Shown here: positions 11,868 through 60,940 of the stretch, one piece after another
Layout: every line of letters begins with the position of its first letter
Position numbering within the stretch: position 1 is the stretch's first letter
Origin: Nymphaea colorata
Taxonomy: Eukaryota > Streptophyta > Magnoliopsida > Nymphaeales > Nymphaeaceae
Assembly (NCBI RefSeq): GCF_008831285.2
Contig: NC_045139.1
Coordinates: 33,019,706 to 33,083,705 of the forward strand
Reading direction: 5' to 3'
Length of the DNA stretch: 64,000 nt
Position numbers and translations under genes: made by a program
The notes under the pieces: model-generated
Seen by the model: only the letters and a program-made list of their open reading frames with translations
What the model was told of the DNA's origin: nothing
Databases searched by the model: none

Positions 11868-12660
11868 TTATGCACTGAAACTTCTTGAACCACACTTTGC
11901 TTGTATTGCTAAGGTCTTGGTATTTCCTGGGCATGGATCTTTGCCAAAGGTGTCCATCAGAGTTGGAATATTACACGCCGTCTTCCCTAAGCAAGCCTGA
12001 CAAAATTGCACGAAAACATAGTATTAGTTGAACTGGAACCTAACTACCATTTCATGCATTCCAAAGGTCATTTGATTTGGCTTCTTAGATTCATGTGCAG
12101 ATGAATGTAAGTGAACAAACCATGAACGTGACCTTAACGTTCTCATTGTAGGAGGATCAGCACTTCGCTAGACATGTTCATGCAGTGTACTGTCTGAGAC
12201 TCAGACGCTTGGAACATTAACAGACGTTTATTTTGGATGGTAGAGATGCTTAGTTAGTGTTTTACCTTCTCAACCACCGACCTTGCTGAGGGAGCATCGC
12301 AATCGCCAAGTGTGAAGTTGCCACAGATTCCTAAAGGATTTCCAAAACTTACGAACTCTATGGATTGTATGATTTTGTGGTTGTCGCATTTTAGATTGAC
12401 CATAGGCTTCAGATCCTCAGTGGCTATTGCTCGGATCTGTGCTTCTTTCCTCTCCCATGATCTGACATGTGGTGGATGGCCTTCGGAGACAAAGCTGCAG
12501 ATGATCTCTCTGGCAACTGTTTCCACCGTTATCTTATATGGATCACCACCTGTTTCCTCAAAAAGCACAAGAAGGTTCCCAGTTGGCTTGAGGAAGGACC
12601 TGGGTATATGGTAACTGACAATGGAAGTACTGTTAGTAAACAATTATCTCAAAGGGGGCC

Positions 12661-12716
<56 letters not shown>

Positions 12717-15700
12717 TTCCCTTCTTTTGTCTCCTGCCTTCGAACTGAGGATATAGGTATTGACGTCTATTTAACTACTATGCAAGGAATCATTCTGTTA
12801 CAAACAAATGCATATTCATTGCTCATGTGTCTATTAATAGTTATAAACAGAAGAAATTGATAACCTAAATTATTTGGGACGGTTAAGGGAAGCCCACAGA
12901 AGGCATTTGAATAGTTTTTTCTGTGTCCTGATGAACATAGATATGCTCAAGTCACATGCTACTGCTGCTTTAAAGATTACAAAACAAATGAACTTGAGTT
13001 GCAGTACTTCATTTAGGTGTCGCATTATAGAATACACGAGAAAGAATGCCTACGGGAAACACCACTGTACCATGTATGTTTCTTGTGTTCTTTTCTATAT
13101 GGGGAAGCTTTATAACTTTTGGAGCTACCATATTGCATGACATTTACATGTTAAAATTGTGGCACTAATACTTACAGTGACTGAGTAGGCTTGCCCAGAG
13201 GACTGAGGTAAGAAGCCCAATAACGGCCGATGTTTTCGCCATTGATCCAAGCTTGGCCTTTGCCCATGGATGTTAGATTCAAAGCAACAGGGTCTCTTCC
13301 ACTTGGTGCATCAAAATATTTCTGGAGAATGCAATTGTTAGCATGATACGGACTTGTCTGGATATCATTTGTATGCTTAAAGGGGCTTTTAAAATTCCAT
13401 GTTAACTAAGGACAAGTTGACCAGTACTATAATTAGTACCTTGTACCAAGTGACTGGCTGATTAATATGATTCCCAGCATCTGACCAGTGGACGCTGTCA
13501 GTTTTCTTGGGATCATAGATCTTAAGTTTTTCTCCGTTTAATCCGACCTGTAGCACAAATTCAAAAGATATGCCTATAAACTGTGCAATTTTTTTCTCCT
13601 TCAAGAAGTGGATTGACGCATTGATTTTCACACTCTATAATCACCTGATATCCCCAACGAGACTGAGTAAGATACTGGGCTCCACTATTCAAACCTTGGA
13701 TTGTCACAAGATTCAGACCTGCAACTCTGTGCTCCAAGTATGCACCATTATCCTTCAAAATTATAGAAATTATATCAACACAAAAGAGTTGATGAGACTC
13801 GTGTCTAATGGAAGTTGAAGCTACACATTAACATGCACTTTCCATCAGGACAGTCCATAATATTGTACTAGTTAGAATGCAACTGCAAAAATCTCTAGGC
13901 GTGTGAACTTGACAATACAATCAGTTAGAGAAGACAACAAATAGCTGAGACTGATGGTTCATCGTATAGATTTTTTCTTGTTTTGTAAGTCCTTTTAGGG
14001 TAGAAGCTCAGCGTGAAAACCCAGGCAGTTGACATCAACTGCTTGACAGAACACGTTTATTTGTAAAAAGGTACTTACTGGTAATCCAACTGTCATGCCA
14101 AGTATAGATATCTTGTTCCTTCCACGCTGTAAAGGTGCCGGTTTAGCAAAAGAAAAGGTCTTATCTACGTTTGTACCATGACCAGTTCCTGAAGCCACAG
14201 TCAGACAAATGAGAAAGAATGATCTGAAATTTGGAGATGATAGAACTGACAATAGGAAAGACAAGCAGAGTATAAAATTTATGTAGTTCCTCAGCTTGAG
14301 CAAGATAAAGCTCTAAACATCTCTTAAGTTCTGAAGCTTTGAGCTTTCTGTAATTTCTTTTCGGAACTTACTAGATAGACAATAATTCTTTTGAAACCAG
14401 TGACGGAAGATGCTAATTTATCCAGGAAGAAAGTACCTATATATCTATCATTGATAAATGCGTGCAATGCATGGCCCAGGGAGGCAATCTGCAGAACGGG
14501 CCTGATGTCACTCCTTGTAGGCAAATCATTGTAACCTACATCAAAGCTGAAATATTTAAAGATTAATAGGCATCGTAGCTTGGACAAGATTCCTACCGGT
14601 ACAATCAAGATCTTGTCGCAGTTCTAGACCATAGAAATGTTTCACGGTGGATTTTTATGTCTGATAGTCATCTTTAAGTATTTTATGAATAGATGGAAAC
14701 GCAGTTGAATATTTTTTGTGATAGAAGCTTCAAGAACATCTGCTTTGGCCATCATATGTACGGATGCTCCATATATAGCAGAGTGCATAATAAACCTAAT
14801 AATCCAGCAGGACACTTCTTTCTTCTTTACTTAGCTATCAGTTACAAAATGCATCTCAAAAAGACATTGAAGCTCGAATGAATCGAACTATTTGATGAAT
14901 GAAAACTGATTTAGAAAATCTAGGTTCCAACTCTGAGAGGTAGGTTGAGTAGTTTAAACACCGGAGAAGGATGAGAATTCACTTACTATGTTGTATGCCA
15001 CATGTAATCTGTCGTATCCTTTGTCATGTTTAAGTGTTCCAAGAAGGTAGTTGATGTAATGCTGACTTCTTCTATCTCTGGGATATCCTCTTGAAACATT
15101 TCCCATTGCTTATTCTTACTAGCCTTCACTGATACTTTGTATATCCTTGAGTTGTGTTGAGCATTTACCTGTCACAATTTAGTGGGTAATCTGGCATCCA
15201 TCTCTAGAGGTTGGTCTACAATCATGATATAACGAATTACAGCTATAGTGCAAATGATATAAATCATTCAAATTTCAAAGATAAAGATAAAAAGAAAGTA
15301 TCTAAATATCATTTAACAGATACCGTAGAGAAATGAAAACAGGTTCCAACTCTTCTTCCGAGTTACCAGTTAAAGGAAAGTCTAAAACTGTGTGATACTC
15401 TATTTTATAGAACTTGAACACTACATTGCCAGAGGCAGCCATAACGTTATAGCGTTAGTGATGTATTAACTGACACACTTCATGTCACAACATCGTGCTT
15501 TGGGACATGCTTCACCAGTATCCATTTACAAAACTTACCTTTGCAGTATTAAAGACAACAGTATTACAATCTGGAAGAATACTGATCGAGTGTGGTGGCA
15601 TGTAATAGGCGCGGCCCCTGAAGCTGAGAGTCGCTGCCTCTCTTGTATGGTTGTTTATAAGAAAAGCAGAGCACACTTTACTGCCTGATGTTTCATAGAC

Positions 15701-17042
15701 ACGTGCCTGCAAAAGCAGAAAAGAAGCCTTTCAATATCTCATGCCATGTTAGAAGCTAGTATGTGTAATACATACATCAACACATACATTGTAAATGTGT
15801 GTGTGTGTGTGTGTGTTGTGCATTTGTCGATAGAAAGAGAGAGAAATCGGTTCCTCCTAAAGATAGAGGACATGGGCCCTTCTGCTTTTTTCCAATTTCT
15901 CATTTTCTTGACTTTTTCCTCAATTTTGACAATGTGGATGTAGCTTGTCACGTGTCTAGCAGGAGCCCTTTAAAATACCATCATTTTACTACATATAGGT
16001 ACGTATAATCATCTTCTCACGAAGATCTATGCTCTAAACAGGTCACAACTTTCATTAGAAAAGCGTGATCCAAGATCTTATTCCTAACAAAAGGACCAGA
16101 CTAGGACATCTACCGGCAGTAATTTTCCCTGCCTGTGTTGAAAGGTAAAAGAATCACAATTGTCAACTTTTTACCATATGGACAGAAGGAGGAACTAACT
16201 TTTCTGTGCGTGTGTGTGCATGTGCAAGTGTTTTATGCCGATCCTCTGATGATAGCAAACCCCAGCAAGGTGAGCCATGAGAGAGTCCATCTTTGGAGGA
16301 AATCACCACCAAGAGCCTGGCAGTGGGCCTCGGTCCCAGCTCTCTCCGACTCCAACTCGACAGTTATTTCATAGGTGATAGGACCTGCTGACAAGTACTA
16401 AACCTGCTACAGCCACACATAATATTTCATAAATGGCAAACAAATACGACTTTATTTGATAAATGCATCTGTATCAGCCAAATTAGTCCAGTACGTTGCT
16501 GAAACCCAAAATTAGGCATGAAATGGCAGTATGGTGTGTGGGGGTACTTGCCTAGTTGCTCTATTGCGGCCAGAGAAAAGAGTGTAGTTCAACTGACTAT
16601 TGCTATGACTTTTATACATTCATCGCATGATCAGTTGTATTTAACTTACCTCGAGCTCATCACCCAGAGAAATGACAGAAGGGGATCCCCATAGCAAGGC
16701 CTTCCTGCAGAGCCTCAGAGCAGAATGAAGGTCTCTTAGATGACCCCATTTTGGGCCCTTTACAAGACCTATTGCAGATGGAAGGGAAAATTGATAAACA
16801 TTAGATTTATACACAAAAGACCATTTACTTAAAATCAAATGCATCAAAAAAAGTATTTTATGTGAACCATGTTCTAAATATTGAGGACAGGTTATAGGAC
16901 AGAAATAGTTTTACTGTTGGAACCAAAGTCGCTTTTCACTTTTTTTCTCTTCCGAAAACAGATGATGTTTCAGAAGATTGATGATGCATGTAATGGTGAC
17001 GCTGAGTGCCAATATTCATTTGACACGAGCAATTTATGGATA

Positions 17043-17077
<35 letters not shown>

Positions 17078-18996
17078 GATCTCACCATACTCATCTAGGG
17101 GTGCCTCATCATAGTAGCATGTGGTAACAAATGAGGAAGCAGTCCTCCCAAAGTTGGTCCCTCCGTGATACTGTCAGTTGATTGAAATTCAAAAAATCCA
17201 GCCATTCAGCTTCAAGCTTTCACAAAACCGCAGTGAAAGAGAAACTTTACTTAACACTGCAGCTCATCAACTCAACAATTTTGTGGTAGCCTTACCATGT
17301 AGTAGTTAATGTGCGTGCCATTTTTGGAGAAGAAGCGAGCCACAGAGAAGGCAAGGTCTTCAGCTGATCTTTGTGATGGAGGGTCACCAAACACTCGATA
17401 CCTTCATTTACCAACCATCTGAAGTCAGTTATAAAGGAAAATAATTTGCCAATTTTTCCTTGGGCTTCATTTACATGTCACCCATAAAGAGTTTGGTTTA
17501 TTATTTTATGAGAGACCTAAGAGAAAACCAAGAAATCAAAAATTTTTGGGGAACTTCACTTCTTTGAACAATGATACTCCTTTGAATATGTTATGCAATA
17601 TGCGAAGTATGTTTGAAACCAATTTCCAAATGCAGAACCATGACTGGCAAATCAAAGTTGATGAACTCAAAGGCGTTCACGTCTGTAGATGCCAGAGATC
17701 ATAAGCTTGCTAACACTTTCAGCTATGCCAATGAAAATACTGAAGCATTACTGAACTTGGTCATATTTCATCTAATGCCAATATGGCATCGTTTCTAAGG
17801 GAATTCTACCAATATCTGGTATGCATATAAACTATGTCTTGTGTGCGTCAAAAACGATAGCGTGCTTACTGAGCAGTCCAATTCTCTGTCCACAATGCCG
17901 GCTTGTTTGGCGTGTTAGGACCTGAAAATGTGTCGCCACAGTTCCTCCCGTTGCAGGTGTTGATCTGAAATTTAAACAAGAAAGAGAAAGCAGAGATCAA
18001 AAGCCTTTAATGCAGCGGAGAAAAATCTGTCCCTCTCCATTAGTGAGCAGAACTGAGAGAAGTGCAGTGAACTCACAACAGGATCAGGGGCATCCTTTTC
18101 CTTGCACATAATCCAGGGCACCCCGGTGCCGAGACTGACGGCCATCTTCCCGGCCCACTGCACGTAGTCGATGCCACTTTGGCGATATGCCAATTTCACG
18201 TTGTCGTACTCATTCTCAATCTGCCATCAGATTCGATGAGAACTTGTAAGTTCCCCGTACGTAATTGCTTGTTCAAACTTTTTTCTTTTTGTAAGAAAGA
18301 CGAGGTAAAAACCTGCGCTAGAACTATGGGTCCTCCTTGAGACGCAAATAGATTCTCCTTCTTCATCATCTTCACTATCATCTTTGAAAATTTTTTCATG
18401 TGAAACTGCAACCACATGCATCTTCTTCATGAGGATTCTCAATTGAAAACAGAGGAGAGACTCCCATGCAAACAAAAACCAAAGGAACCACCTTAGGACT
18501 TGGTATATAGTATATACATATCCATGCATACATTCACACAGACAGAGTAGATGACAAAGTTACTCCTTGCTGTACCTTGAATGGCGCATTGTCAGATCGG
18601 AAAATTATGCCCTCCACCTCTCTTAACCAGTAGGGGAATCCTCTGTTGCATACCCAAGAAGATGTCAACCAAGTCAGGAGAAAACATGCTCAGTTCTTTC
18701 AATAGGAAAAATGAAGAGTGAAAAATGAAAGTAACAGGGACCATCTCTCTCACAGTGCTCTGGTTTCGATACATATCGAAACGATGGCATTAAAACGGCA
18801 AAGAAAATTAAAGTTCAAAACGTTACCCGTAATTCCATTCAGCCTCAACGAATGGTCCAATCCTGAGAGTGACATACAGGCCCTGCCGTTGGATTTCCTT
18901 GATGAACTTGATCACATCATACCTTCCTCCAAACTGAAACTGTATTTCATGCATTGAAACGCTTCTCAGTATTATGAAATGCATCTCAGAAAAAGA

Positions 18997-19066
<70 letters not shown>

Positions 19067-19917
19067 TTTTTGTTTCTTACCTGGCCTTGTACTGGTTCAT
19101 GGATGTTCCAAAATACATAGGTTTGAATCAGATTGATTCCCCCATGTTTGGCTTTAGCAATCAAATCAGGCCACATCTAGCAAAGTTTCAAACGTCAAAC
19201 TCAGTCACTTAAATGGAAACAACGAATATAAAAACCATATAGATGGCATAATTTTTTAGAATAAAAGTTGAGTTTGCTTTTTAATTTCTCTGTTTCAATG
19301 ATATGATGACCACCATTACCTTCTTTTATTTCAGCAAATTGTCCTCAGGTGCAAGTTTAGAAGAGTTGGTGAAAGAATCTGAGCGACTTAACGCGCAGAA
19401 CTCCTTGTTGTGAACTCTATATAAGGGCTCTCTCTTTTTACTTCTTTCTTATTTCTGACACATAGTTAGAGAGGTTTTATTCTTGGCAGATGGCATGCAG
19501 TCTCTGCTTTCGGCAAAAGGTATTTGAGAATCAGCAGTTTAATTCTTTAACATTTGATTTTGGGTTTGTGATGAGGAGTCGTGTGCAGGAGTCTGAGGTG
19601 AGTCCAAGAATCAGATGATAACACAAATTTAAACAGAGATTGAAGGTACATTAAGAAAATAATTTCTGCAACTTGAAGGAGCATTCACATGGGCAGAAGG
19701 GAGCATATCTTACGTAGGACACGTTCATTTTTAACTTTTATTTTTTTCAACTCTTTTGCAATCCAATCCTATACATACGATTTCTTGGGTCTTATTGGAC
19801 TTCAGTTTTTGAGTATTGGAAGGTGAAATGCATAAAAACCAATAACTGAAGATGCATCACATCTTAGGGACCAAGAAAATCATAAATTCGTATATGTGCA
19901 CATGTGTGTGTGTGTGT

Positions 19918-19960
<43 letters not shown>

Positions 19961-20467
19961 GGGAGTACTTCGAGGATAATGGATGGAACCAGAGAAGAGG
20001 AGCTCTCTCTTGCCATTGATAATGAGAGACCTTCCATCGTAAGTGACTCCTCGTTGTTGCTGCTGCTGTTGATCTTGTTGTTGCTGATTTTGTTGCTGCT
20101 GCTGTTGATCTTGTTGTTGCTGATTTTGTTGCTGCTGCTGTTGATCTTGTTGTTGCTGATTTTGTTGCTGCTGCTGTTGATCTTGTTGTTGCTGATTTTG
20201 TTGCTGCTGCTGTTGATCTTGTTGTTGCTGATCTTGTTGCTGCTGCTGTTGATCTTGTTGTTCCTGCTGTTGATCTTGTTGCTTCTGCTGATCTTGTTGT
20301 TGTTGATTTTGTTGCTGCTGTTGATCTTCTTCTTCTTCTTCTTGTTGTTGCTGCTGCTGCTGCTGCTTTTCGTGGTGTTTTTTTCCTTGTGAATATTGCA
20401 CTAACATTAACGTCAAGAAAAGCACAACAAAGAAAACTTTGAAACCCATGACTCTCTTTGATGACAT
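11868..20467 (-). CDS. BGAL: Beta-galactosidase (GH35) with SUEL lectin domain and N-terminal poly-Gln tract
   Basis: Secreted glycosyl hydrolase expected to remove terminal beta-galactose from cell-wall polysaccharides. The exons are 19958-20467, 19081-19176, 18827-18939, 18576-18642, 18313-18405, 18077-18220, 17870-17964, 17296-17401, 17086-17170, 16650-16768, 15539-15706, 14987-15168, 14437-14546, 14079-14188, 13645-13752, 13440-13547, 13176-13321, 12266-12614 and 11868-11996. All join in frame to 2838 nt, or 945 residues. A signal peptide spans about residues 1-28. Residues 35-138 are a Gln-rich insert, and the GH35 domain starts at VTYDGR (141). The acid/base motif IENEY places Glu297, and the nucleophile in WTENW is Glu368. 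The C-terminal SUEL-type galactose-binding domain is at about 859-939. Without the Gln tract the length (about 840) is normal for the class. The Arabidopsis BGAL7/15 group is the nearest match in layout. The start chosen is the first ATG in the signal-peptide frame; upstream in-frame codons have no ATG. Confidence 0.95.
12661..12712. repeat. Compound (GT)n(GA)n microsatellite
   Basis: Nine GT units then about 17 GA units, in beta-galactosidase intron 17, starting 46 bp from the exon 18 acceptor. Confidence 0.95.
18999..19066. repeat. Triple compound (AC)n(AT)n(AG)n microsatellite
   Basis: Sixteen AC, ten AT and eight AG units in series. This is nearly half of the 141-bp intron 2 of the beta-galactosidase and ends 14 bp from the exon 2 donor. 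Confidence 0.95.
19904..19954. repeat. Compound (GT)n-TATA-(AG)n microsatellite at a splice donor
   Basis: On the gene strand, exon 1 ends ...CCCGAT and the intron reads GTAC(TC)n, then TATACACAC. The donor GT therefore lies two bases from about 17 TC units. Confidence 0.95.
20054..20365 (-). repeat. Poly-Gln-coding repeat in beta-galactosidase exon 1
   Basis: Encodes residues 35-138: Q8-E5-D, then Gln runs broken by single D, N, K or E. The 3' half is a minisatellite with a 36-nt unit encoding D-Q6-N-Q4, present four times, plus one variant with D for N and a final partial unit. CAA and CAG codons are mixed (TTG and CTG on the + strand), so this is not a pure trinucleotide expansion. Confidence 0.95.
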
Positions 20468-23197: not shown

Positions 23198-26030
23198 GTG
23201 AGTGTCTTTCTACCATGGTTTTCGGTAGCGTGTCATCTTAATCTGAGTCGGTTGGGAGGACTTGAACACCATGTGTTCGTGCAAATGCTTATGAGAGTGT
23301 TGTTTTATCTCGTTGCGTAAGAATGTGCGAACCTCTGTGAGGCTCCTATGCCTAAACCTGGGCCTGATTCTCATTCATGGAAATCTCAATTCCCTTGTTG
23401 TTTTACTTTTAATTTGTTTCGGATATCATTTATTATGTTGTATTTAACTGTTTTAGAAATTTTACTTATTTATACCAACTTTATTTATTTTGCTATACTT
23501 GTATACTATCCATTATATCATTTCTAAACATTTGCCACGTTCAATACAATTCTTCTCATTTTCAGTTCTTTCCCAAGTTATGGCCAGATTAATTCTCAAC
23601 TCCAATTTCTGTACCGCTTCCGCTTTTCGTCCATGCTTAGGCGATGTTTTCAGCAGGCGACCTGGATTATTACTAGTACTTTCTTTTGGGTTTGTGCGGG
23701 TCCATCATTTTCTTGAAAGTTTTAAGAATCTCATTGAAAGTAACCAAACAAAAAAAAAAAAATCAAATTCTATCCATATTATCAAGCCATTTGTTGAAAA
23801 TTTCGATTATTTTTTTAGTTGTAATATACTTTATTTCTTTTCAACCTGTTATATATTGCAACCCGACATAGCCCACTTGCTGTTAAATTTTTTCATGAAA
23901 ACTGAAAACTCCTTTCCTGTATTGTCAATATATTATCATAACAACGTTTGTGACTTTGACTGTAAAAAATTGTGTTAAATTTGTATTGTCAAAAAAATTG
24001 CATTTTCATCTATATTATTATTTATCTGGATTGGCAAATATCCTTTCTTTGTTTTTGTTCTGCTATTGATTTAATCTTGGTGATGCCATGTTCAGAAGAA
24101 GTTTCCACAGCAAGGGCTTATGTTATTTTTGTACCTCTTCTGTTTTCAGGTGTTCTGCTTTAGTTGCTCCTCTTTTGTTCTTTTTCTTTAATATGCTGCA
24201 AGTTTTTTCTATTTTCATTGTTCAAGAAAATAGCATTTCCTTTTTTCAACAGCAGTTGATCATAGGTGAAAGAATTATTTAAAATGGACTGGCACCATGT
24301 ATGTCTACATTGTCTAGTAAATATTCTTTGCTAGCGTTTGGTCAGACGCTGTCCTGTGGAATCCATATTTGCAGATGGTCAGGCTTTCTGTGAAGATATT
24401 GTTTGCAGAAAGGAAAAATTGCTGTTATGGTAAGAAGTTGATGCCTGATCTTACTTGTACCGGGACGGTGGGACCCATGGTGGTTGGAGAGATCTTCTCA
24501 TGTGGTATGACCTAGGATGATGGAGAATGTATCATTTGCTTTATTCAAGCAATCAGAACTAATTCAATTTGGTTTTATGTTACATCTATTGTTTTAAAGT
24601 ATCTTGGGATAAATTTAGAATTCTTAGAAGTCACTCATTCTCCTTGAAGGATCAATTTTGACGTACCTTCGCAGCTTCATAAAGTTTTATGAAATTTGGC
24701 ATGGAAGTGATCTCCTGATTGATTTCTCGCGCTGATATGAGCATCATTCTGGGGCTAGTGGGTTACAGAATGTTGTCATAAATCTTATTCTTTTCTTTTT
24801 AGTGATGAAACTCCTTGGACTTGAATTTTTTTCGTACCATAAGTTCTGATTTGCATTTTTACTAGTTTTTGCTAACATTGAAATTATTCTCTCATATCAT
24901 TTGGGAATGTGTTACGATCCATATAGGGATCGTGGGGAGCAGTAGTAGTTTAATTCTACTAGGTCTTGTTATTTGATGTTTTCAGTATGGAACTGATTTC
25001 AGTATGAGTCAGTCCAGTCCGGACCCGTTATTAATTGTACTTAAGCTTGAGATTTACCCTAATTAAGCATGCTTGTTGATTGCCTTTCTCTCTCTCATTC
25101 CTTTCTCCCTTCTCCTTCCTCCCTCTCAACTTCTGTTAGCCGACGGCTAACAGAGTTTGTATTTGCGTGTTAATGTGCTAATGTCTTACACTCATTTACT
25201 TGGTGCTGACTATCCTAAACAAGGTTTTGCTTGCTCCAACCAAGTCCAATACTTGTATTAGGTAAAACTAGTTGTGCCCAATCCTATTGTTGATGCTGTA
25301 GTGGAAGGACATGAAAAACACTGGGATTGTAGAATAATTGATCTTATCATATTTGAATATGCAGTAATTTGATCAAAGCCCAAAGGATAAAAGCACGAGG
25401 AACTATTCAAAAAAAAGTTTATGTTATGACTTTGTTAAACACTTGAATCAGTTATATTAATATGACAATATCCAATCTATCTCATTATTTAATCTTTTAT
25501 AGGTTTGTCGTATTACTTTTTTAGATCGGATGCTCGCATAACCATTCATGCTGGCTCCTCTGTTTTCCGCGTGCCTTATCAAGTGTTTTCTATTATTGAT
25601 ATGTGCATATATGTGTGTCAATATGTGTCTTGAGAGAGAGAGATCTTACTGTCCTTGTTACATAGTCTTATTTGGTCCTTTTTAGTGTAAGATAATGCTG
25701 AAACGTACTTTCGGTGCCAGTCAGGAATGGAAATATTAAATCATAATGTGTTTAATTTATGAACATTATTTTCATTTACTATTTAACAACACCCTCTGAC
25801 CTAAATCTTTTGGCTTCTTTACTAGGCCATGCTCGTTAATGATGGACTGTTGCTTCTGGTGCTTAACCATCTCAGCATAGTCGTCAGAGAATTAGTCGGG
25901 TGATGCTGTGTGTGGAGGTCTTCATATGGCAGAAGGAAGTTCTTCGATTATAGAAGATCAACCCCTCTCAGGCTTTTACAGAAATGGTTATTAGTCTGCT
26001 TCTTGGTCGAAGTCAGGTATAAGATCAAGG
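23198..26030 (+). other. Probable leader intron(s) of the PORR gene
   Basis: AT-rich DNA between candidate leader exons and the coding exon. A possible small exon lies at about 24376-24431 (TTTGCAG before, GTAAGA after). An acceptor-like GTCGAAGTCAG lies 14 bp before the coding ATG. I recognise no independent gene. Confidence 0.35.
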
Positions 26031-27353
26031 ATGGTGCTCCTGCGGCTACACCATGTACCAGATTGTGTAACCAGGTTGGCTACAAACAACTTTCAGGAAG
26101 GTGGGCGTTTGTTGGTATCATTATTTTCTCAGATTTTGCATGTAGACAAGCGTTTCATGACCAGAAGCAGAAGGGTACAGGACAGAAGCAAGAATAAGAG
26201 AGTGCAAGATCTAGAAATTGCAACAGAAAAATGGAAGATTGTCTCAAAGGTGTTATTTGTCATGGAAACATTAAAACACGAAAGTGAACAGATCATGACC
26301 TTGCGAGAAATGGAACGGTACAGGAAGCAGATAAATTTAAAGAAACCACATAAAATATCTGATTTTCTAAAAAAATCACCAAAGCTGTTTGAGTTGTACA
26401 AAGATCAGAAGGGTGTAACCTGGTGTGGGCTTACACAGAAAGCTGAGGAAATGCTTGAAGAGCAAGACAAACTTCAAAAAGAGCAGAATGACAAGTTAGT
26501 CGAGTATGTGAGCAGGTTTTTGATGATGTCAGTTGATAAGAGGCTCCAAGTAGATAAGATTGCACATTTTAGAAGAGATATGGGTCTGCCGGATGATTTC
26601 AGGGAGAGCTGGATTCATAGTTTTCCAGAAAATTTCAAGGTTGTTAAAGATGATGATCATGTGGAATATTTAGAACTGGTAACATGGAATCCTAAGTGGG
26701 CAGTGACGGAGCTAGAAAAGAAGTTGGGAGTAGCAAATTTGGATAATCCTCCCTGTCCAGGATTGCTTAACCTCCCTTTTCCATTGAAATTTCCTGAAAA
26801 TTATAAAAAGGTGTTCAGGTATGGAGGAGCTATTGAACATTTTCAGAACCGGTCATATCTCTCGCCCTATGCGGATGCCAGGGATTTGAAACCTGGTTCA
26901 TTGGAGTTTGATAAGAGGGCCGTTGCAGTGATGCATGAACTGTTGAGCTTCACTCTTGAAAAAAGGCTGGTTGTGGACCATTTGACCCACTTTCGTAAAG
27001 AATTTGTCATGCCACAAAAGTTGATGAGGTTACTTCTGAAGCATTTTGGCATCTTCTACGTCTCTGAGAGGGGTAAAAGGTTCAATGCTTATCTAAATGA
27101 AGCTTATAATGGCTCTGACTTGATTGAAAAATGTCCACTAGTTCAATGGAAGGAGAAGCTTCAAGGACTCGTTGGTTACAGAGGAAGGAAAAGAAGGATA
27201 GAGATGTTTGATGGGCATTCTGAAGGAGAGGAAGGAAACAATTTTGAGGGGATTTTGGACAATAGATATTTGGACGCTCTGGAGGATACTTGCACAGGTG
27301 CAGGATCAGATGGTTCTGAGATTGATGTTGGAGAGATTGAAAAGGAATATTAA
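26031..27353 (+). CDS. PORR-domain organelle RNA-binding protein (WTF1/WTF9-like)
   Basis: A single 440-codon exon. PORR (plant organelle RNA recognition, formerly DUF860) proteins bind organellar transcripts, and characterised members promote group II intron splicing: WTF1 in chloroplasts, WTF9 in mitochondria. The N-terminus (residues 1-55) is rich in Arg, Leu and His with few acids, as in a mitochondrial presequence. The PORR region runs from about 58 to 375, with hallmark blocks KPHKISDFLKKSPKLFELYK at 105-124, WCGLTQKAEEM at 131-141, FRRDMGLPDDFRESWIHSFP at 180-199, and a second half with LTHFRKEF...LLLKHFGIFYVSERGKR. The C-terminus is acidic (about 395-440). The start is the first ATG after an in-frame TAG at 25992-25994. 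Targeting and the exact member are inferred, and plants have over a dozen paralogues. Confidence 0.93.
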   Translation: MVLLRLHHVPDCVTRLATNNFQEGGRLLVSLFSQILHVDKRFMTRSRRVQDRSKNKRVQDLEIATEKWKIVSKVLFVMETLKHESEQIMTLREMERYRKQINLKKPHKISDFLKKSPKLFELYKDQKGVTWCGLTQKAEEMLEEQDKLQKEQNDKLVEYVSRFLMMSVDKRLQVDKIAHFRRDMGLPDDFRESWIHSFPENFKVVKDDDHVEYLELVTWNPKWAVTELEKKLGVANLDNPPCPGLLNLPFPLKFPENYKKVFRYGGAIEHFQNRSYLSPYADARDLKPGSLEFDKRAVAVMHELLSFTLEKRLVVDHLTHFRKEFVMPQKLMRLLLKHFGIFYVSERGKRFNAYLNEAYNGSDLIEKCPLVQWKEKLQGLVGYRGRKRRIEMFDGHSEGEEGNNFEGILDNRYLDALEDTCTGAGSDGSEIDVGEIEKEY

Positions 27354-56739: not shown

Positions 56740-58441
56740 ATGGCGCTCCCCCTAAGACCTTCAAAATCTGCACCATGTTCGCCCATCAAGCCCCTTCCAG
56801 CGATTCGAAATCCGCACGTTCGATTGGACTCCTTTCACGTCATTCACAAAGTCCCAGTTGGAGACACTCCCTACGTCAAAGCCAAGCATGTTCAGGTAGG
56901 CTCCCAGACTTCATGAACTGATGCCATTCCCCTTCCTTCGTTCTCATGTGGATTTCCCGACTGATTTTTAGATGAACCATTTTTTCTCATTGTGGTAGTT
57001 TCCTGCTTCTGTTGTTTGTTGTTTTTTATTCATTTTTCCTTTCATTTGTGACATGTATGGATCAGTTGGTAGATAAGGACCCAGATAGGTCGATTGCTCT
57101 CTTTTGGGCAGCGATCAATGCGGGCGACAGAGTTGATAGTGCTCTCAAGGACATGGCCATTGTGATGAAGCAGCAGAACCGAGCAGAGGAAGCCATTGAA
57201 GCCATCAAATCTCTGAGGTGCAAGTGCTCAGAAAGTGCTCAGGAGTCCCTTGATAATATTCTCCTTGACCTATACAAGGTTGGTCTCTCCTGTTTTGATT
57301 TTTGAAGAACCTTCATCCCTTTCCTTTCTGTACCCTCGTCTGTTGTTCTTATTTTTTCTCTTGGGAACTTAAGAAAAGTAAGATGTGTTCTGCAGAGATG
57401 TGGGAGGTTAGATGATCAGATTACTCTTTTGAGGCACAAGCTGGTGCTAATTCAACAAGGAATGGCATTTAATGGCAAACGAACCAAGACAGCACGATCT
57501 CAAGGGAAGAAATTTCAGGTTTCCATTGAACAAGAAACAACTAGATTGCTGGTAAGAGTTACCCTTGAATCACCACAGGGAGCATTTTCACTGTCTGCTA
57601 CCAAGTACTGATATACCTTCTCAACAATCAACTTCTTGTATAGGGAAATTTGGGTTGGGCTCTGATGCAGCAGAACAACTATGTTGAAGCCGAAGCCGCC
57701 TACAGAAAAGCACTGTCAATTGCTCCCGATAATAACAAGATGTGCAATTTGGGCATCTGCTTGATGAAGCAGGGACGAATCTCAGAGGCAAAACTAACTC
57801 TGAAAAGAGTAAAACCTGCTGTAGCAGATGGACCTCGAGGGGTTGATTCTCATCTAAAAGCATATGAAAGAGCGCAAGAGATGCTCGGAGATCTTGAATC
57901 TATGAATGGTCAAGGCCAGTTACATGAAATGTCTTCCTCAGTGTGGCAGCCTCAGCCTTGCACACAGTTTTATGCAGATGAAAACTTCAACTCTATCAAT
58001 ATGGACAGCAATGCATTTCCTCCATTGCAGAAAAGCACCAAACCAATTTTATCACAGAATATCCTAAACATTGACGCTCCACCATTCTATTCATCAAAAC
58101 CAATAAACGTCCTCTCTGAGAGAACCGTTCATGATCCTCTTGCTAACCTCAAAAGGACGAGGTCAATTAGCACATACCAAGATTTGGAGGGCTTGAAGAA
58201 AACAGGGATGGACCAATTTGAAGAAAGATCAATAAAGACTTCATTTTTGGCAGAACCAGCGGAGGACGGGGATAACATCATCTGGCCTGACAACAAGGAG
58301 TTTGAAGAAGCAATAATGGCAGCTGCCGCTTTTATCATTTCTGACACAGCAAATCCTGCAGATTGCCAGAGAAAGATACCCAAGCGACTCAAAGTTTTCC
58401 AGGAGATTGCCCTTCCCCTGAGCCCTCAATGCCCGAACTGA
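56740..58441 (+). CDS. TPR protein of the MS5/TDM1/POLLENLESS3-like (SDI) family
   Basis: The exons are 56740-56895, 57066-57278, 57396-57551 and 57644-58441, all in phase, giving 440 residues. The N-terminal block MALPLRPSKSAPCSPIK...VPVGDTPYVKAKHVQ leads into the family core: LVDKDPDRSIALFWAAINAG, MKQQNRAEEAIEAIKSLR, KRCGRLDDQITLLRHKL and GKRTKTARSQGKKFQVSIEQ. TPR helices GNLGWALMQQNNYVEAEAAY and APDNNKMCNLGICLMKQGRI begin at residue 176. Arabidopsis MS5/TDM1 acts in meiotic exit after meiosis II, and the SDI1/2 branch links to sulphur status. The long Ser/Asp-rich C-terminal half (about 230-440), with FEEAIMAAAAF and a basic KRLKVFQEI end, fits the POLLENLESS3-like rather than the shorter SDI branch. 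Expression tissue is not readable from sequence. Confidence 0.94.
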
Positions 58442-60940
58442 ACTTTATCTGTTGCCTTCCATTCTTCTCTCCATTTCCTCTTATTTTTTTTCTAATTAAC
58501 AATGTTTCTCTGATTTATGGGAGATGAACTTGTTCTCCTCTAGAGCCTGTTGGTCTGCGGGACGCCTAAGTGTTAGTCCTAAGATCTTAACAACAGTGGA
58601 TGGCCACTGACTTTTTCCTCATTAATCAATTCTTGATGACCGTGTGTTAAGCTAATCAAATTAATGAAGTTTGCTTTCCAATCAAATTGTTTTTGCAGGA
58701 AATCTTTGCCCACGATGTATGTCTTGTTCCATATAGAGAGGGAGATGGATTTAGAGTTTCTTGCTTCACAGAATTCGATCATTTGAACTATACATTGTCT
58801 TGTCTGCATTCAAATCGTCCAGCCTTCTCATGTCATACGTACTATTTTGGCAACTCTTCTGTAAAAAACACAGTTGGGGTTCACCGAACACCTCCTGAAT
58901 CGACAGAATTTATTAGAAAAATAAAAGAATTTACACCTTTCCACGAAACTATTTTGCAATAATTTTAAACAGGGCGTTTGATAGCACAAAGTTTTCAGGT
59001 TTACTGTTTCAGGGGAAACTTCACGCGCAGAATGCACCAACCAGAAAACAGGGCTGACTTTTAGGGATGCAAATCATACAGATACCGTTTCCCCAGGCCC
59101 CTTAGGTCTTGGGAATTGAGACAAAATAATGTAAATTTATCTAGGATTATAAATTCTTTTATCTCTAAGAAATGCGATTTATGTGGATTTCTGTAGATTT
59201 GGGCGTGGTGATTGGCCTTTTGACTCTTATAAATTTTTATTTATTGTGGTTATGCACACAGCATTATCTCCAGATCCAAAATTTTCTGGTGTCTTTTCTC
59301 TCGTCAAGATTTTCTTAAGCCAAAAACGATGTTTTAGGCCGTTGGTTTGGGACTAAGATTTTATTTATTATCCAAAAGCTTGAGTTTTATTTTGATTGCT
59401 AGGCGTTTGAACCAGGAGACCATACTTGTATGTTAGCGTCAAGGAAACAATAAAAGGATAATTGTCTGAAATTAAAGAGGTTAGAAAGCATCAGATCCTA
59501 ATAATCATTTTATAAGTCTGATAACCAGATTCAGTCTTATATGTAGAGAGGAAAGCGATACCCAAGTATTGGTGGAGAGAGTGGAGACTTGGAGATTTAG
59601 AATCCACCTTAATTCCGCAGTTTTATTACTTTATCAAACATTAGATATTAGAACTTCTAATTTAAGATATCCTAGATAATCAGTTCATCTTCCAGACAAA
59701 TAATTTGGAATCCCCGCTGCAATTCATGGACCTGAGATCCTAGATAATCAGTTCATCTTCCAGACAAATAATTTGGAATCCCCGCTGCAATTCATGGACC
59801 TGAGATCAATAAAGCTGAATGCGAAGAAACCATTTCATAGCCCTTAGGAATTTTCGTCAGAGTACAAGAAATAAGTTGGCATATATCTCTGCATTTTAGT
59901 CGCAAGATGCACAGAAGACAGAGGAAAAGTCGACTAAATTTTTTTACTTATGAGATAGTTCATATGTTTTTACAAGACCAGAAATTAGTTCCTAAACATG
60001 AAAAATGGGTTTCCAAAGATTTTTCATGCTTTTTTAAGTTTACTAGCTTTTGCAAGCACAATTAACATTGGCAACAGCATAAAAGGAAAACAGCAACATT
60101 TTTCTCAAATACAAAGCATATAGACAGATTTCATGCAAGTAATTGGAACTCACAGTACATCTATAAGTGATTCAGAATATTCATATTAGAACAATGACAG
60201 AACATGTCTTACATGATAAGTTCTGTATTGAAATTTCACCTGAGGCTCTGCAGTATCCAAAGCCAAATGGTACATATCAAGAGCTTGAGACATTAGTTCT
60301 GTATCTGAATTGCTAACAGGTTAAAGCCAACAAGCTACGTGGTAAAATAAAAAATCTATCCGGATCTGTATACGACATTCGCTAGTGAATACAGTATAAG
60401 TCAACTAATGTAACAATAAAATTGGAAGCTTATTAGCAAGAGCTCTGTCTATTTACCGACGGAATTGTATTTAAAGTTTGCGTAAAATGAATAAATGGGT
60501 TCTTTAAATGATAAATAAAGATGAAGGAAGGGAGACTAAAAGGAAACATCTAGTATAAACGATTCATCATAAAGGGCCTCCATCCAGAGGAAAAAACATG
60601 TACTTATGCTTAGTTCAACATCCCAACATTGAGAAACCAATTCACAATAGATATTGATAAGAATATTATGGATAATAATCAAATCTGGTGTAGATCAATT
60701 TTTGAAAAGATTCTATCTGAAAGTCTTCCATGATTCTCTCCATTTAGTCTAATAAAGATAGTTGAGAAGTAAAGAATTTGGCACTTGGGATGCATCTCTT
60801 GACATAAACTGAGAAAATGATCTGCTTGCCTATTGAGAAACGAAAAAAAATACTGGACACTAACAAGCTCAGGTTTTTGAGTTTTTCACGAAAACAACAC
60901 ATACATGGCTGTAGTGAAAGCAGCAAATCTATGAGAGGAT
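58442..60940. other. Intergenic DNA, no gene recognised
   Basis: The 3' flank of the TDM1-like gene, then AT-rich DNA with an exact 68-bp tandem duplication. No coding ORF is supported. Confidence 0.55.
59671..59806. repeat. Exact 68-bp tandem duplication
   Basis: CCTAGATAATCAGTTCATCT at 59671 recurs at 59739, and both 68-bp copies read alike through GGAATCCCCGCTGCAATTCA to GGACCTGAGAT. Identity suggests a recent event. Confidence 0.95.

Follow-up and report, generated by a model that had tools for sequence, protein, structure and literature searches.

A glutamine-rich tail, probably specific to water lilies, at the N-terminus of a secreted-looking GH35 beta-galactosidase of Nymphaea colorata

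Introduction

Why should a plant enzyme that looks secreted carry a glutamine-rich tract of 104 residues ahead of its catalytic domain? The question is raised by a gene for a glycoside hydrolase family 35 (GH35) beta-galactosidase in a 64,000-nucleotide stretch of the water lily Nymphaea colorata (contig NC_045139.1, positions 33,019,706 to 33,083,705), which we refer to as the window. Plant polyglutamine (polyQ) cases discussed in a 2025 review (PMC12177298) are regulators that act inside the cell, in contrast to the secreted-looking water-lily proteins described here. We conclude, with odds that we put at roughly two in three, that a secreted enzyme here bears a genuine N-terminal tail specific to water lilies, produced by in-frame growth of a minisatellite, gained before Nymphaea and Victoria separated, and weakly kept since.

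Results

The tract was observed directly at 20054..20365 on the minus strand, where translation and a repeat scan placed it at residues 35–138 of the encoded protein. It consists of 82 Gln (48 CAA and 34 CAG codons), 10 Asp, 6 Glu, 5 Asn and 1 Lys, and it opens with Q8-E5-D; in coordinates, length and these details it is as the original prediction, made from the letters alone, had described it. Long, pure polyQ of the aggregating type comprises about 35 or more uninterrupted Gln. The longest pure Gln run here is 8 and the net charge is −15; the tract is a punctuated Gln-rich repeat rather than one long pure polyQ.

Tandem Repeats Finder identified a 36-base-pair (bp) in-frame array in exon 1 (8.4 copies, score 457), and the tract is therefore not a product of chance. 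Counted from the GH35 end, units 1–4 are identical and the fifth has one mismatch (GAT versus AAT), making 20054..20233 (minus strand) the most uniform part of the array upon comparison of the units. More distally, the sixth unit has 3 differences, the seventh 13 and the eighth 10, followed by 24 bases of Gln codons toward the signal peptide. From this pattern, the array seems to have been extended most recently on its GH35-proximal side. Exact copies of a 39-base unit occur four times genome-wide, all at the window locus. Both other forward frames of the tract are likewise stop-free, so that the open frame by itself proves nothing. On the opposite strand (19922-20442, plus) there are two open frames, a poly-Leu frame (156 residues stop to stop) and a Val/Ala/Asp repeat (131 residues), which are probably meaningless by-products of the repeat.

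The host gene is a complete 19-exon GH35 beta-galactosidase whose coding part runs from 20467 to 11868 on the minus strand (11868..20467). Splicing the 19 exons by hand from the window sequence yielded a single open frame of 945 residues, with GT..AG borders at all 18 introns, and a search of about 5.8 billion proteins returned a public N. colorata protein, “beta-galactosidase 11-like” (P0002), which matched our model letter for letter. This record probably derives from the same assembly as the window, so independent support for the tract comes from the Victoria orthologue described below. Pfam assigned GH35, GHD, galactose-binding and SUEL lectin domains, and the Glyco_hydro_35 match (PF01301; residues 147–453) scored 385.3 bits against a curated cut-off of 27, which places the protein in GH35. 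The catalytic Glu pair, E297 (IENEYD) and E368 (WTENW), presumably acid/base and nucleophile, was invariant across 25 aligned proteins. When the GH35 core was searched by sequence against the PDB, the best solved relative was 3w5f, the tomato enzyme. Splicing, Pfam and the residue check all agree with the earlier description of a full-frame 19-exon enzyme with intact Glu297, Glu368 and SUEL domain, and the enzyme should have normal galactosidase activity with its tail in place.

Exon 1 (19958..20467, minus; 510 bp) encodes the signal peptide, the tract and the start of GH35, and it ends at the donor GAT|GTACTC. The signal peptide, judged by inspection without a predictor, comprises residues 1–28 (MSSKRV...YSQG; 20384..20467, minus), with a supposed cut after SQG. 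It has the features of a secreted protein: a hydrophobic core of 12 residues (Kyte-Doolittle mean 3.1), small residues at −3/−1, and conservation in Victoria, where the YSQG of N. colorata reads HSQG. A linker, KKHHEK (20366..20383, minus), separates the signal peptide from the tract in the translation, and the mature N-terminus after the predicted cleavage would be KKHHEK followed by the tract. The tract thus lies where it had been proposed to lie, between the signal peptide and the GH35 domain of a secreted-looking enzyme. The intron 1 donor is the weakest of the gene, with 4 of 9 matches to the consensus, the lowest among the 18 donors; the intron begins (19921..19957, minus) with this donor and then a 17-copy CT/AG microsatellite (19921-19954). 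Were intron 1 retained (19880-19957, minus), the product would be a Gln-rich protein of 195 residues that keeps the signal peptide and carries LSLSLS close to its C-terminus.

The Victoria cruziana orthologue (P0008; 901 residues) is 88% identical over the whole-protein alignment and carries a tract at the same junction. This tract has 69 residues (55 Gln, 7 Asn, 4 Asp and 3 Glu), a longest Gln run of 6 and a net charge of −7. The two proteins are alike in their Gln-rich tract punctuated by Asp, Asn and Glu, in the junction, in the SQG motif and in a D-Q5-N stretch, the last of which fits one origin of both tracts. Gln share is nearly equal, at 79% in N. colorata and 80% in Victoria, with one interruption per 4.7 and 4.9 residues, respectively. 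The tracts differ in length (69 versus 104 residues) and in the order of their punctuation, and 12-residue stretches recur at most twice in Victoria but up to five times in N. colorata.

In contrast, an N. colorata paralogue (P0010; 833 residues, on C9) lacks the tract, with 28 residues before the VTYD motif as opposed to 140. All 19 of its exons were recovered exactly; exons 2–19 have the same sizes as those of the window gene, exon 1 measures 174 rather than 510 bp, and it ends at the same RSTPD codons. Synonymous divergence (dS) between the two genes was 1.11 by NG86 and 1.14 by YN00, with non-synonymous divergence (dN) of 0.161 and 0.155. The Nymphaealean whole-genome duplication has a reported peak of synonymous divergence (Ks) near 0.9 (PMC7015852), and it is plausible, judging by Ks, that the pair stems from this event.

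We placed these proteins in a tree of 35 chosen GH35 proteins with both tracts cut off. Nymphaea and Victoria grouped together with support of 100/100, the paralogue fell outside them (100/99), and Amborella came next (89/82). A clade of 30 of the 35 rows (100/100) united the window gene with proteins that bear the names BGAL11, 13 or 14 and left outside those numbered 3, 5, 6 or 16. Where names among the 120 matches listed in the first search carried a number, it was likewise 11 or 13 in all cases but one (a 3). The BGAL7/15-like label that the gene had been given is unproven and perhaps off, the tree containing no BGAL7/15 rows, and we describe the gene as BGAL11/13/14-type. Under the simplest history suggested by the tree and the presence or absence of the tract, the gene was duplicated, one copy acquired the tract, and Nymphaea and Victoria then split, with the tract later reshuffled yet kept. 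Published dates put the Nymphaea crown at 80.7 million years, with Victoria and Euryale nested in Nymphaea and their split at 42.6 million years (PMC9670182). These dates would place the Nymphaea/Victoria split between 42.6 and 80.7 million years ago, and the tract is probably more than 42.6 million years old.

To gauge how unusual the tract is, we surveyed 313 different proteins, the best 120 of 5852, 206 and 354 matches in three protein searches. Among the 275 readable GH35 N-termini of these listed matches, the two water-lily proteins (P0002 and P0008) were the only ones with at least 6 Gln before VTYD, and thus the sole bearers of a long Gln-rich tract. The 140 residues that precede VTYD in P0002 compare with a median of 30 over the 275 proteins, both tailed proteins counted. 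A lineage-specific tract had been put forward as something to look for, and among the proteins compared it was indeed confined to Nymphaea and Victoria. A search for shorter fragments gave no water-lily-named protein among the 120 matches listed (best identity 74%). Within N. colorata, the window gene alone had a Gln tract among 9 different GH35 first exons that could be read. Literature searches on N. colorata polyglutamine or glutamine-rich glycoside hydrolase linkers gave no match, and those on apoplastic plant polyglutamine, Nymphaea GH35 or the BGAL family gave no paper treating this protein, as judged from the listings.

Other low-complexity tails were found at the same junction: Asp/His in date palm (P0084), Asp in cacao, Craigia and Diplodiscus, Asp7 in Quillaja (P0171), Lys in Rhodiola and Kalanchoe, and His in one ENA entry. 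These assorted short tails indicate that the site tolerates hydrophilic repeats. The Asp/His-rich and Asp7 tails also hint at a wider family pattern. Of 252 scored relatives, 55 have a Gln at one of the four positions just ahead of the VTYD-like motif, and such a residue could possibly have been the seed for slippage.

About 71% of the non-synonymous, non-stop single-base steps from the tract's Gln codons lead to His, Pro, Leu or Arg. Neither tract contains any of these residues or a stop, which hints at removal of other changes; Asp and Asn lie two steps away from Gln codons. The longest Gln runs were shorter than in most of 20,000 shuffles, the share with a run this short or shorter being 0.011 for N. 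colorata and 0.0008 for Victoria, but we give this test little weight because tandem copying makes the interruptions non-independent and inflates the result. Tail and linker in N. colorata have a net charge of −13 versus +13 for the rest of the mature protein. The corresponding values are −9 for tail and linker and +4 for the rest in Victoria, and the rest of the tail-less paralogue is +5; thus, the charge balance between tail and rest is not strict.

Elsewhere in the window, a PORR domain (plant organelle RNA recognition), nearly complete and scoring 340.6 bits, lies in a 452-residue open frame (25995-27353, plus). A 265-residue open frame (57644-58441, plus) starts with a tetratricopeptide repeat and is probably one exon of a longer gene, and a perfect tandem duplication at 59669-59807 has two copies of a 68-bp unit (100% match).

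Discussion

The likeliest reading of this locus is a modest one, even though a Gln-rich tail is surprising for a secreted plant hydrolase. We propose that a 36-bp minisatellite in exon 1 expanded in frame at a point after the cleavage site and ahead of GH35, where members of the family appear to tolerate hydrophilic low-complexity inserts. One of the two duplicates would have acquired it prior to the Nymphaea/Victoria split, and repeat turnover would then have rewritten the order of the residues. If the tract is translated, as we infer, removal of the signal peptide would leave an acidic and presumably disordered mature N-terminus. Weak selection probably keeps the tract in frame, hydrophilic and punctuated, in keeping with secretory passage and solubility, and the role of the tail would not go beyond that of a flexible, soluble spacer altering charge and wall mobility.

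Several observations weigh against this proposal. With two species compared, two separate gains may have occurred. The codon of R139, directly after the tract, is CGA and differs from CAA, a Gln codon, by a single base, and no synonymous difference separates the six most similar units. Copying of whole units could by itself keep the composition and cleanse the array, and selection is thus suggested rather than established. The AlphaFold2 model of P0002 (25 aligned sequences) was weak, with a mean predicted local distance difference test score (pLDDT) of 66.9 and a predicted template modelling score (pTM) of 0.53; it rendered residues 84–134 as helical, with confidence in the low to middling range, and supports no claim of disorder. 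Finally, the N-terminus could be read in 275 of the 313 surveyed proteins, the motif being missed in 32 and lying outside our limits of 15–299 in 6, although the first 55 residues of the 32, checked by eye, contained no Gln tract.

One rival idea is that the tract is a purely neutral product of slippage in both species, without effect or constraint, which we regard as unlikely but worth taking seriously. Four identical units adjoining GH35 are what growth in place leaves behind, unrelated short inserts occupy the junction in other GH35 members, and length is not fixed between the species (104 versus 69 residues). However, the tract is found in two genera whose split would fall 42.6–80.7 million years ago on published dates (PMC9670182), with a nearly equal Gln share (79 and 80%) and no His, Pro, Leu, Arg or stop inside. 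The suggestion of a simply tolerated expansion stands insofar as the junction takes short inserts in other plants, while the similar make-up in two genera opposes a passing accident. An assembly or annotation artefact (a collapse, an expansion or a false first exon) is very improbable. Although the four identical units are a place for a miscount of copies, the intron-1 donor is the worst of 18 and the identical public record probably comes from the same assembly, the Victoria protein has the tract as well, a single exon holds the tract together with the signal peptide and the beginning of GH35, and the same RSTPD codons close the first exon of the paralogue. The genome was assembled from PacBio reads polished with Illumina reads (PMC7015852). 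Victoria thus settles that the tract exists; the exact copy number is a question that it does not answer.

Two further explanations give the tail a positive role. An adhesive or aggregating domain, self-associating like expanded polyQ and so clustering the enzyme or holding it on the wall, would draw on a Gln content of 79% across 104 residues. We consider it improbable: the longest Gln runs are 8 and 6, a non-Gln residue occurs every 4.7 to 4.9 positions, the charges are −15 and −7, and maximum runs fall below those of most shuffles, unit copying inflating that last result. Short Gln runs and net charge likewise count against the aggregation and wall adhesion that the original prediction had entertained, and, taken with the acidic punctuation, they favour a soluble, disordered tail over an aggregating or sticky one. 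Alternatively, an extracellular transglutaminase could use Gln residues of the tail as acyl donors and so anchor the enzyme in the wall of the pollen tube or stigma or attach polyamines to it. Arabidopsis BGAL11 and 13 are described as peaking in mature pollen (PMC2531105, PMC4844286), and apple pollen is reported to secrete a wall-associated transglutaminase that cross-links a Gln/Lys-rich test substrate (PMC4844290), which keeps the notion of cross-linking alive without bearing it out; the tract's presence in two genera would fit as well. In contrast, transglutaminases choose few Gln residues by rules described as unclear (PMC4844290), the N. colorata tract contains a single Lys and the Victoria tract lacks this residue, the pollen link is one described for Arabidopsis, and literature listings joining polyglutamine, transglutaminase and pollen gave nothing on this idea. 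We therefore find cross-linking doubtful. A bolder proposal is tentative at best: a duplicated pollen-type enzyme could have a selected acidic Gln tail whose function, that of a solubility brush or of a transglutaminase anchor, is to determine where in the wall of the pollen tube or stigma the enzyme works, and the 36-bp copy number would be a tuning knob between species.

Our preferred reading, a tolerated, soluble and weakly kept tail, has consequences either way. Should selection act on it, the tail would count as an unusual polyQ-like module outside the cell; without selection, a minisatellite would have persisted within a secreted enzyme over tens of millions of years and kept a hydrophilic composition throughout. 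With a tail-less paralogue and a tailed Victoria orthologue at hand, what a Gln-rich repeat does to a folded enzyme that can be assayed is directly testable.

Among the closest known systems is the BGAL11/13/14 group of plant GH35 enzymes, with which the window protein shares its domains, catalytic Glu pair, SUEL domain, signal peptide and place in the tree; the 19-exon layout is common to the window gene and the N. colorata paralogue. The GH35 tails of date palm (Asp/His), cacao (Asp) and Rhodiola (Lys) sit at the same junction and are similarly hydrophilic and of low complexity, but they are shorter and built of residues other than Gln. Cereal prolamins resemble the tract in having Gln-rich repeats that pass through the secretory pathway, yet they are Pro-rich storage proteins without an enzyme domain. 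The polyQ of ELF3 is, like the tract, a Gln-rich repeat whose length is expected to vary; however, ELF3 acts in nuclear speckles via phase separation (PMC12177298), whereas the window protein looks secreted, with an acidic tract and short Gln runs.
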